Shown here one piece after another: positions 1,536-55,837 of a stretch of DNA of 64,000 nucleotides. The first letter of the stretch is position 1. Each line of letters begins with the position of its first letter. The stretch spans positions 1 to 64,000 of the forward strand of contig NZ_JAVBXD010000002.1 of NCBI RefSeq assembly GCF_030756675.1, read 5' to 3'. Made by a program: the position numbers and the translations under genes. Under the pieces are notes generated by a model. That model was not told the origin of the DNA, made no database searches, and was given only the letters and a program-made list of their open reading frames with translations. This DNA is from Bacillus multifaciens (GTDB taxonomy: Bacteria; Bacillota; Bacilli; Bacillales; Bacillaceae_G).

Positions 1536-2186
1536 CTAATTTGTTGCATGTTGTTTTGGTAACGGAATTGCCACTGTTTTCTTTTCCTTTGCTGGATAAT
1601 AAATTAAATCTAGTACTTTTGCCTGAACAGCAAAGGAAAGAATCGTAAAGGCAATCTGAGTCCATGTTAAATAGTATAGTGAAAGTGCAATGACAATTAC
1701 GTCAAAAGCGAAGAAAATTTGCCCAACTGTAAAGCGTGTTTTTTTACTCAATACAATTGTTAAAATTTCATCTCCGCCTGTTGCACCGCCGAATCGTAAA
1801 ATAAAACCAAGTCCAACCCCAGCTAAAGCTCCGCCTATTACTGCAGCTACAAATAAATAATTAGATAAATCAACCGTAAACGGAGAATAATTTTCCATTA
1901 AAGAATAAAACACTCCGAATGAAATTGAACCGATAAATGAATAGCCGACCATTTTTTTACCTAAAAATGTAGCGCATAGTAAAATGACTGGAATATCCAT
2001 TAAAACCGTTGAAATGGACGGTGAAATATCAAAAAAGTTTTGTAGAAACAGCGCCATTCCGACAAAGCCACCTTCAGTTAAGTGGTTTTGAAAATGAATG
2101 TGATATAGCACGGTAGCTAAAATAAATGAACCAAGTAAAACCATAAAAATTTCTTTAATAATTTGTCGACTTTGGATGTTCTCCAT
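1536..2186 (-). CDS. YitT family membrane protein
   Basis: A 216-residue integral membrane protein with about five hydrophobic segments (residues ~10-32, 50-70, 75-95, 103-130, 145-172) and the glycine-rich motif FGGATGGDEI, typical of the YitT/DUF161 family. Family members usually carry a C-terminal DUF2179 domain; this one ends soon after the last membrane segment, so it is the short form. Function is unknown; transport is a guess. The ATG follows GAGAGAAGGA. The ~450-nt region upstream is unusually structured (see the element at 2311-2620 and the hairpins at 2203-2288), which suggests leader-based control. Confidence 0.85.
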   Translation of the reverse strand: MENIQSRQIIKEIFMVLLGSFILATVLYHIHFQNHLTEGGFVGMALFLQNFFDISPSISTVLMDIPVILLCATFLGKKMVGYSFIGSISFGVFYSLMENYSPFTVDLSNYLFVAAVIGGALAGVGLGFILRFGGATGGDEILTIVLSKKTRFTVGQIFFAFDVIVIALSLYYLTWTQIAFTILSFAVQAKVLDLIYYPAKEKKTVAIPLPKQHATN

Positions 2187-2202
2187 CGTTATTCCTTCTC
2201 TC

Positions 2203-2288
2203 CGTAGTTAGTAGTTTTCTACTGTTCATAAATTAACTACGCCTATATAGCAGCAGTTAGTTTACGTACGTCTAACTCCGCTATATAT
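2203..2288 (-). promoter_or_regulatory. Two hairpins just upstream of the YitT gene RBS
   Basis: Read on the minus strand, a hairpin with arms CTATATAGC/GCTATATAG and inner AGTTAG/CTAACT lies at 2243-2288. It is followed by a perfect 8-bp stem CGTAGTTA/TAACTACG (2234-2241 with 2203-2210) that ends directly beside the Shine-Dalgarno sequence. No U-run follows either stem, so translation control or transcript stability is likelier than termination. This could be the expression platform for the tandem element upstream; that link is inference. Confidence 0.45.
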
Positions 2289-2310
2289 CACTGAAGAAAT
2301 AACGAATAAT

Positions 2311-2620
2311 CCTCTCGTCCATCAATTCTCCCTACTTTCGTTTTAGTTTAGGCCTAAATTAGACTAAACAAAACTTAGAGTAGGATTTTTTATTTAGCAA
2401 TCCTATTCTCTTCTAGGTTTTGTTTAGTAAGTGTCAAACAACCTAAACAAAACGCTACGTATAAGAAGAGTCTTTTCGCTGCCAAATTATCCTTCGGGCA
2501 ATCATAATTTCCCCACTTTCGTATTTTTTTCGCTAGACAAAGTATCTAGGCAAAAAAATACGCTACGTGTAAGATTCGTCTTTTCGATGCCACATGCTCC
2601 TTCGAGCGATCATGATATCT
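2311..2620 (-). ncRNA. Candidate tandem structured leader element
   Basis: Read on the minus strand there are two copies of a conserved block: ATGATYGCYCGAAGGA, then TGGCANCGAAAAGAC, then CTTAYACGTAGCG, then a variable stem-loop, then CGAAAGTRGGGA. Copy 1 is about 2620-2509 and copy 2 about 2508-2327. The variable stems differ completely in sequence but both pair: CGTATTTTTTT/AAAAAAATACG in copy 1, CGTTTT..TTTAGG/CCTAAA..AAAACG in copy 2, the latter with a nested AGGATT/AATCCT hairpin. Conserved single-stranded blocks around compensating stems are the hallmark of a structured RNA. I do not recognise it as a named riboswitch class. A repeat element without RNA function is the alternative. Confidence 0.5.
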
Positions 2621-2809
2621 AAATCCTTTCTGTAAAAGATTTTATACTATTATATCATACTTTTGAAAAATGTATGTTGTTGGAAACTGCAAATGGGCAA
2701 AGAAAAACCTACATACTTCGTAAATATGAGAGGATAAGGTGTAATAAACTAATATTTGCTGTCGAAGTTTTTTGTGATGAAAAATGAAATTTTGTGCACT
2801 GTAACAATT

Positions 2810-3004
2810 TAAATCCATTTTGATTTTTCGACATATAGATTGCTGCTATGCAGAAAAAAAGGAGCTTCCACTCGCTTTCTCCCTTTGTTTAAACTTCGCA
2901 TGTGGCAGAAAAAGGCCCTGACCGTTTCTATGCATGGTCAGATGCTCTCGCCAACTTAAAAAAAGATGGTTTTATGTCGTTTTTTAAAGTGAATTTATAT
3001 AGAA
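2810..3004 (-). repeat. Dispersed ~200-bp repeat, copy 1
   Basis: This matches four other stretches (12485-12682, 38637-38815, 49398-49509, 57181-57375). Read on the minus strand it begins with TATATAAAT and ACGACATAAAACC. It contains the shared core GAGAGCATCTG, GACCATGCATAGAAACGG and TCAGGGCC. It ends with CTGCATAGCAGCAAT and GTCGAAAAATCAAAATGGATTT. It has no coding capacity and looks like one of the bcr-type intergenic repeats of the B. cereus group; the family number was not assigned. Confidence 0.75.
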
Positions 3005-3092
3005 ATTTACTTTAATTAATTACATAATATTCATTTTAAAATGAATATTTCCTATAATTCGAGTCATATAAGGGATGACTGGAGAGATTCGT

Positions 3093-3308
3093 ATGAAAAT
3101 AATAGGTATACAAGCAAGCATAGAGAAAAAAAGAGAGGAACTAACTATTCTTGTAAGAATGTACGGATTTAATCATGAAAAGGTAGTTGTATGCAGCCAA
3201 GAATTAGATGATTTAGTCTATCGTTTGATGGAAAGAGCTACTTACCAAGAAAGTATGCATTCTATTTCTGTAAAGAAAAATACGAATGACAATATACATT
3301 CACCTTAG
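3093..3308 (+). CDS. Spo0E-type aspartyl-phosphate phosphatase
   Basis: A 71-residue protein with the SQELD signature (residues ~41-45, in CSQELDDLVYRLM), diagnostic of the Spo0E family. These small helical-hairpin phosphatases remove phosphate from Spo0A~P and so delay sporulation. An in-frame ATG at 3075 is possible, but GGAGAG at 3081-3086 is well placed for the ATG at 3093. It is monocistronic in an otherwise gene-poor stretch. Which paralogue it is (Spo0E, YisI, YnzD-like) cannot be decided. Confidence 0.85.
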   Translation: MKIIGIQASIEKKREELTILVRMYGFNHEKVVVCSQELDDLVYRLMERATYQESMHSISVKKNTNDNIHSP

Positions 3309-53227: not shown

Positions 53228-53264
53228 GCATATAATTACGTACATACACGAAAATACATCAAAA

Positions 53265-53506
53265 TGTTACGATGAGGACATGAGTAGTTATCTACGATTC
53301 TCAGAGAGAGAAGCCTTAGGCTGTGAGCTTCTTAATACGAGATTATTACTTACCACCTCTGAACTTCAGCAGTGAACGAATGTCTAGTAATTGCTGACGG
53401 CAAGTGCCGTTATCTTGAACTTGAGCAGTTAACAATGTGTTAGCTGGAACAAGGGTGGAACCGCGAATTCAACACTCGTCCCTTTTTATAGGGATGGGTG
53501 TTTTTT
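53265..53506 (+). promoter_or_regulatory. T-box leader of thrS
   Basis: The T-box core AGGGTGGAACCGCG lies at 53452-53465, followed by the terminator (ACACTCGTCCC/GGGATGGGTGT then TTTTT, 53471-53506). Upstream are stem-I features with AGAGA/GAGAGAAGCC and a specifier region containing ACC (Thr) around 53359-53362. Uncharged tRNA-Thr would bind and prevent termination, raising threonyl-tRNA synthetase. Confidence 0.92.
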
Positions 53507-55654: not shown

Positions 55655-55785
55655 AGAATACGGATTTGTGGAACAAGTAGAAGCACCCGCTTCTCACCTG
55701 ATTGACGCGAAAGCAGTTGGCAGGTAAGTATTTCTTACTAGAGATATTATAAGTGTGGGTGTCATATGCCCGCACTTTTTTGTTT
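55655..55785 (+). promoter_or_regulatory. L20-type leader of the infC operon
   Basis: Upstream of infC-rpmI-rplT lies a structured leader: GAAGCACCCGCTTCTCACC, ACGCGAAAGCAGTTGGCAGGT, then a terminator GTGTGGG/CCCGCAC with T-run at 55752-55782. This is the plan of the Bacillus L20 leader, where ribosomal protein L20 promotes premature termination. The call rests on operon context and layout. Confidence 0.8.
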
Positions 55786-55837
55786 GGGTTCTTCTTTCCC
55801 AAAACGTATTCCCATAAAACCTTGGAGGTGGCTTACT

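Follow-up and report, generated by a model that had tools for sequence, protein, structure and literature searches.

The leader of a YitT-family gene

The window analysed here, i.e., a stretch of 64,000 nucleotides from Bacillus multifaciens (contig NZ_JAVBXD010000002.1), carries at positions 1536–2186 of the minus strand a gene for a 216-aa YitT-family membrane protein (PF02588, E 1.1e-43), the putative controlled gene of the leader described below. Pfam returned only the YitT_membrane domain for this protein, its structure model was unusable (mean pLDDT 41) and solved structures gave nothing better than E 0.24.

An earlier note had described a duplicated element upstream of this gene, with invariant blocks and a perfect 8-bp stem at the YitT Shine-Dalgarno, and had proposed a riboswitch-like RNA. 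Both copies with these blocks are indeed found at that place on the minus strand, and so is the 8-bp stem (2241–2234 paired with 2210–2203), which is conserved as helix 5 of our last-module alignment. The blocks themselves are codons, a stop and the next Shine-Dalgarno: each copy contains an ATG...TAG frame, a 16-codon upstream open reading frame (uORF1) with its own Shine-Dalgarno, and several differences between copies (ATC/ATT, GCT/GCC, TAC/TAT) are synonymous. The sequence TGGCANCGAAAAGAC matches exactly only at 2470–2484 and 2578–2592; three further matches carry three mismatches each, and the total of five is close to chance expectation (mean 6.4).

Read 5′ to 3′ along the minus strand, the leader starts with a promoter-like extended −10 recognised by eye (TGaTATAAT, 2649–2657), comparable to CATATGATAAAAT at a promoter-like site in relatives. 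The first uORF1 copy (MIARRSMWHRKDESYT, 2563–2613, from sequence and homologous loci) ends in TAG, and a hairpin supported by covariation over 17 segments starts at the base after that stop (2520–2562). RNAalifold models the Shine-Dalgarno of the second copy (GTGGGG, 2511–2516) as pairing with codons 14–15 of the first (2569–2574). The second copy (MIARRIIWQRKDSSYT, 2455–2505, same basis) also stops at TAG and is followed by a longer structured spacer (2339–2454, by eye) that ends beside the next Shine-Dalgarno and was kept out of the covariation alignment. Between this copy and YitT lies a third short ORF, hereafter the last uORF (MDERIIRYFFSDI, 2322–2281, ending in ATA-TAG), again delimited from sequence and homologous loci. 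Pairing tests place within it an anti-Shine-Dalgarno (TCGTTATTTCTTC, 2293–2305) that would form 13 bp with 2186–2198, i.e., the YitT Shine-Dalgarno through the start codon, which fold and pairing analysis assigns to the 3′ strand of helix P1. The intervening RNA holds hairpin P3 (2251–2280), immediately 3′ of the last uORF in the last-module alignment, and hairpin P4 by the YitT Shine-Dalgarno (2203–2241, from sequence and the same alignment), which includes the 8-bp stem. At the level of sequence analysis this architecture is well supported. A four-segment switch resembling that of ermC (1:2 and 3:4 versus 2:3) was noticed by eye and is a candidate.

Divergent from the YitT leader is a gene for a Spo0E-like sporulation regulator (3075–3308, plus strand, 77 aa, E 1.2e-11). 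Two inverted repeats, seen by eye and the second followed by a T run, occupy 2850–2950 of the minus strand between this gene and the leader; these may encode a small RNA or act as a terminator, and the segment had no Rfam match. Elsewhere in the window Rfam identifies a T-box leader (53260–53486, plus strand, 109.6 bits) and a ribosomal protein L20 leader (55669–55787, plus strand, 84.9 bits).

Distribution of the leader in relatives

A scan for the pattern W.RKD.SYT-stop over the genome contigs of a collection described as 84,980 species returned 13 stretches, 11 of which precede YitT (Gottfriedia, Bacillus sp. and Priestia taiwanensis), the other two being chance matches. Locus L003 was rejected since its match lies inside a longer open frame and ends in TGG, and L007 for a stop codon within the match. 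Two pattern matches in viral contigs were judged from their sequence to be chance as well, and a longer pattern had no match there.

A protein search for YitT, which ignores the leader, yielded 37 loci (20 + 1 + 6 + 10). The look upstream of other YitT genes that the earlier note had suggested found a homologous leader, with uORF1 and its Shine-Dalgarno, at all 37 of these orthologues as well as in the window. TAG followed by C ends every uORF1 copy in this set (40/40); the 110 pattern-selected copies described below had TAG built into the pattern and are not counted for stop invariance.

Two groups of leaders can be told apart. In the first, the last uORF has 13 codons and ends in ATA-TAG in all 21 loci, window included, and 19 of the 21 leaders hold a single uORF1. 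Kinship is close, with 11 distinct last-uORF sequences among the 21 and 13 distinct sequences among 22 16-codon uORF1 copies. Codons 3–6 of uORF1 in this group (GCTCGAAGGAGC) have the capacity for a 4-bp hairpin close to where uORF1 begins; at the DNA level first copies show almost no variation in this segment, and the second copies in the window and in locus L016 have lost it. Gottfriedia-type leaders such as L017 have, after the promoter-like site and 5′ of uORF1, an additional hairpin (AATAAGTTC...GAACTTATT) that the window lacks. In the second group, uORF1 has 21 codons and ends in [VI]WKRYDLSY[TI]-TAG at the 16 loci from the protein search; this group's second uORF is unlike the last uORF of the first group. 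The leader looks to span two orders, which we take as distinct because their genome samples are disjoint.

Leader and YitT orthologue co-occur in the samples compared. Among 397 genomes of the order of G002, 17 have the orthologue (E ≤ 1e-45) and the same 17 have uORF1, against a single match for a reversed-pattern control. Both are present in 19/19 genomes of the corresponding family; each genome has uORF1 at one place, the only additions being the tandem copy of G002 and a match in G017 that is put down to chance. A phylum sample of 249 genomes has uORF1 in five, all of them orthologue carriers, and one reversed-pattern match. No reversed match was seen in the 19 family genomes or in the sample of the second order (that of G423), where 158 of 324 genomes matched the pattern and none showed more than one match. 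We fetched 110 of these 158 (30 + 80): YitT lies downstream in 109, in 108 of them as the first long ORF and at locus L212 behind another frame. From 50 second-order genomes with no exact match, 40 lack an orthologue at E ≤ 1e-32 and the remaining ten, which have one, all carry a variant uORF1. A second uORF is present in 107/107 second-group loci tested (three of the 110 were omitted by the script), and in several second-order leaders it comes near the YitT start or extends into it. The neighbouring genes differ between the lineages looked at. A dispersed bcr-like repeat was considered and is ruled out by the single place per genome and by the lack of a plasmid match.

In the one fetched locus without YitT downstream, L108 (3033 bases), a uORF1 copy (MEPHRRNTCFIIWKRFDLSYT, TAG, C) at 1468–1533 precedes a gene at 1764–2993 for a GNAT acetyltransferase with Acetyltransf_9, Acetyltransf_17 and SCP2_2 domains. 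Only L108's own genome out of the 104 in its family matched the pattern; a looser reversed pattern gave three matches there. L108 is possibly a case of the same sensor on another gene.

Coding constraint and RNA structure

Codon statistics separate the two kinds of uORF. In first-group uORF1, parsimony steps are distributed 12/9/30 over the three codon positions, and in-frame codon differences are synonymous in 54% of cases, versus 14% and 23% out of frame; third positions hold 12 of the 23 variable columns and 30 of the 51 steps, GCTCGAAGGAGC being the exception. The last uORF gives 15/9/24 steps and 23% synonymous differences in frame versus 11% and 16%. In second-group uORF1 the synonymous share is 78% in frame over the final 11 codons (5% and 21% in the other frames) and only 10% over codons 2–10 (24% and 20%). 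From the in-frame excess it follows that the C-terminal end of uORF1 is selected as a peptide and the last uORF much less so. With amino acids so weakly constrained in the last uORF, RNA pairing may explain much of its conservation.

The stem that the earlier note saw between its last two blocks corresponds to the hairpin after the uORF1 stop, and its sequence does differ with pairing kept. We aligned 17 of 18 distinct homologous segments, the window segment 2320–2472 (second copy) being left out because of its long insert. Five of 15 pairs are changed on both sides; doubly changed cells number 22 versus 8.0 in shuffles and the covariation score is 0.310 versus 0.183, neither value being reached in 500 shuffles, a test that related sequences can beat. 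Pair 21–75, for instance, is GC in eight segments and UA in eight, and pair 20–76 is GC, GU, AU or UG. The C after the uORF1 stop is the first base of this stem in 16/17 segments and therefore need not be a termination signal. Scattered copies detached from leaders, or an absence of covariation, had been named as marks of a simple repeat; what we find is an element tied to YitT that covaries. For the second group, single folds of eight leaders also give a long post-stop hairpin, and a consensus fold of 82 segments printed no pairs, probably through an alignment fault.

RNAalifold run with no structure supplied pairs uORF1 codons 14–15 with the next Shine-Dalgarno. Changes in this pairing fall on one side only, and the duplex energy was better than shuffles in none of 14 distinct pairs.

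In the last uORF it is codons 6–11 that pair with the YitT initiation region over 10–15 bp in 21/21 loci, with an energy below all 300 shuffles in nine of 12 distinct pairs (0.04–0.09 in the other three), and codon 9 varies between TTC and TCC in concert with the opposite base (pair 11–165: UA 14, CG 6, UG 1). Taking the last module in its entirety, pairing cells make up 98.2% versus 96.7% in shuffles and doubly changed cells number 11 versus 3.2; the three doubly changed pairs were equalled in 129 of 500 shuffles and the 12 further pair types fall under the shuffle mean of 12.9, covariation being limited here because of low divergence. A synonymous-recoding null (400 draws) was clearly exceeded in only three of 11 loci: the fraction of draws reaching the observed score was 0.000–0.003 in L055, L057 and L061, 0.06–0.12 in six loci, 0.185 in L048 and 0.37 in L016. 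When uORFs and YitT starts were swapped between clades the scores were 18.0 (A × B) and 14.1 (B × A) versus 23.6 and 21.3 at home, and a clade B uORF set against the YitT start of the window showed no lowering (26.3).

We also computed with ViennaRNA the unpaired probability of each Shine-Dalgarno, free or with a ribosomal P site placed on uORF codons. Over 21 loci the YitT Shine-Dalgarno has a mean of 0.25 when free and 0.25–0.26 with the P site on last-uORF codons 2–3; it rises to 0.49 at codon 4 and 0.88 at codon 5 and is 0.60 at codon 13, so that a ribosome anywhere on codons 5–13 is predicted to raise it to 0.60–0.89. The weakest openings are those of L016 (0.46) and L061 (0.38), with the P site on codon 13. 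For the uORF1 step (23 copies) the next Shine-Dalgarno has a mean of 0.17 when free; the highest value, 0.61, comes with the fourth-last codon in the P site, and the last codon there gives 0.36. In silico the relay is therefore strong for its last step and partial for its first.

A putative relay of leader peptides and its alternatives

We favour, at a probability of roughly 55%, the reading that leader peptides here form a translational relay, uORF1 being a nascent-chain sensor whose translation pauses close to its UAG stop. The short mRNA leader would be ordered uORF1 (duplicated here), last uORF and YitT, each downstream Shine-Dalgarno being masked by a structure that contains the end of the preceding uORF. 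A ribosome at the end of uORF1 would displace codons 14–15 and the stop-codon hairpin and thereby free the Shine-Dalgarno of the uORF that follows. The 10–15 bp helix masking the YitT initiation region would in turn be broken by a ribosome positioned on the last uORF. The C-terminal part of the uORF1 peptide, IW...DxSYT before the UAG, would behave as a nascent-chain arrest sequence, such that under a particular condition ribosomes pause at or near the UAG, the next Shine-Dalgarno stays open long enough for initiation and YitT is switched on. A pause at or near termination is suggested jointly by the constrained uORF1 end, an invariant UAG stop and the hairpin that begins right after it. Translation of the uORFs, the pause, the direction of control, its trigger and the function of YitT are what we infer from these features.

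The same helix geometry would also serve constitutive translational coupling, in which each uORF only opens the next Shine-Dalgarno, YitT output follows general initiation and elongation capacity and the peptides are irrelevant. The simulated opening by a ribosome anywhere on codons 5–13 of the last uORF, its weakly constrained amino acids and the several second-order leaders whose second uORF ends near the YitT start or overlaps it all agree with this. However, both groups keep the amino acids at the end of uORF1 although synonymous sites vary, which counts against coupling alone since coupling has no need for it, and we regard this reading as less likely than the sensor relay.

Attenuation by amino-acid starvation, with ribosomes held on the uORFs wherever Arg, Trp or Tyr codons are decoded slowly, is less probable still. 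It draws on the invariant Trp and frequent Arg/Lys codons of uORF1 and on the nearby presence in the window of putative argG and argH genes. Yet the listed uORFs contain no run of a single amino acid, unlike trp or his leaders, and Arg is interchangeable with Lys and Gln at uORF1 positions 10–11. Moreover, argG and YitT share a contig in only 4/19 relatives (G008, G010, G012 and G018), at 0.28–1.8 Mb, and lie on separate contigs in 15/19, so the neighbourhood is not conserved.

That the uORF products are small proteins acting in trans would fit a conserved peptide with a conserved start and Shine-Dalgarno, but the uORF stands upstream of YitT in all loci read but one, its RNA pairs into the next cistron and the head of the second-order peptide lacks coding constraint (the 10% given above); we find this quite improbable. 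Two tandem ligand-binding aptamers, i.e., a riboswitch, would explain tandem copies, conserved blocks and a covarying stem, but are hardly credible given that the blocks are mostly codons with synonymous variation and that almost all first-group leaders have a single uORF1. What remains of the earlier cis-regulatory claim is a tandem leader with compensating stems tied to YitT; the aptamer with conserved loops is not supported. Rfam at gathering score had no match in the leader or in nine related loci, and a search of 2150–3060 at E up to 10 gave only snoRNA, miRNA and osmY models at E 1.5 (the best) to 8.6.

Within the favoured relay we speculate further, and tentatively, that IWxxxDxSYT-UAG is a previously undescribed ligand-sensing arrest-peptide family of two orders that blocks RF1-dependent release once an antibiotic or metabolite has bound at the ribosome, that YitT is an exporter or protector switched on through the uORF relay and that in L108 this sensor is connected to a second protective gene, that of the GNAT acetyltransferase. 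Missense changes in a YitT-family gene are reported for macrolide-selected Mycoplasma pneumoniae mutants (PMC10240068), and metabolite transport has been suggested for YczE, which is similar to YitT (PMC4944035); together with the L108 acetyltransferase these faintly hint at a role for YitT. A conserved leader peptide that apparently controls one YitT orthologue group would offer a direct route to the inducer and hence to function. If the arrest peptide is real it adds a widely distributed nascent-chain sensor, and a chain of uORFs in which the codons of one mask the initiation site of the next would set a threshold in a manner that is unusual and open to experiment.

Leader-peptide translational attenuation and termination-arrest peptides are known kinds of control; the peptide family, the YitT target and the multi-uORF relay appear new. 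None of the three was reported among the matches listed from open-licence literature (a report elsewhere is possible), and six uORF peptide strings had no match in it. The leader shares with erm-type attenuators (ErmBL, ErmBL2) a short ORF that has a ribosome site of its own, two leader peptides being described for ermB, and a stem that sequesters the main initiation site until a ribosome occupies the leader ORF (PMC8274638); for the present leader this last point is an in silico result. It differs from them in that the gene is a YitT-family membrane-protein gene, that the codons of the last uORF themselves would mask the main initiation region and that uORF1 can be duplicated.

UAG is read by RF1, and the distance from Asp to the stop is longer in TnaC than in uORF1. 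As in systems of the TnaC and SpeFL type, the C-terminal end of uORF1 is constrained and its UAG invariant (40/40 copies), arrest being putative here. Like TnaC and SpeFL, uORF1 would act as a small peptide at a stop codon, and its W and D are four residues apart as in TnaC, where W12R and many D16 changes abolish stalling; SpeFL is described as inhibiting RF1 (PMC8429421). No homology to either is claimed, and the output here looks translational.

The conserved uORFs described with uORF4u likewise stand in front of orthologous genes, and that paper's text makes no mention of YitT (PMC10219788). YczE, which has the DUF161 region in common with YitT and is devoid of the C-terminal DUF2179, is under a predicted transcription factor of the MocR type (PMC4944035), whereas for the present YitT gene we propose control through translation of its leader.
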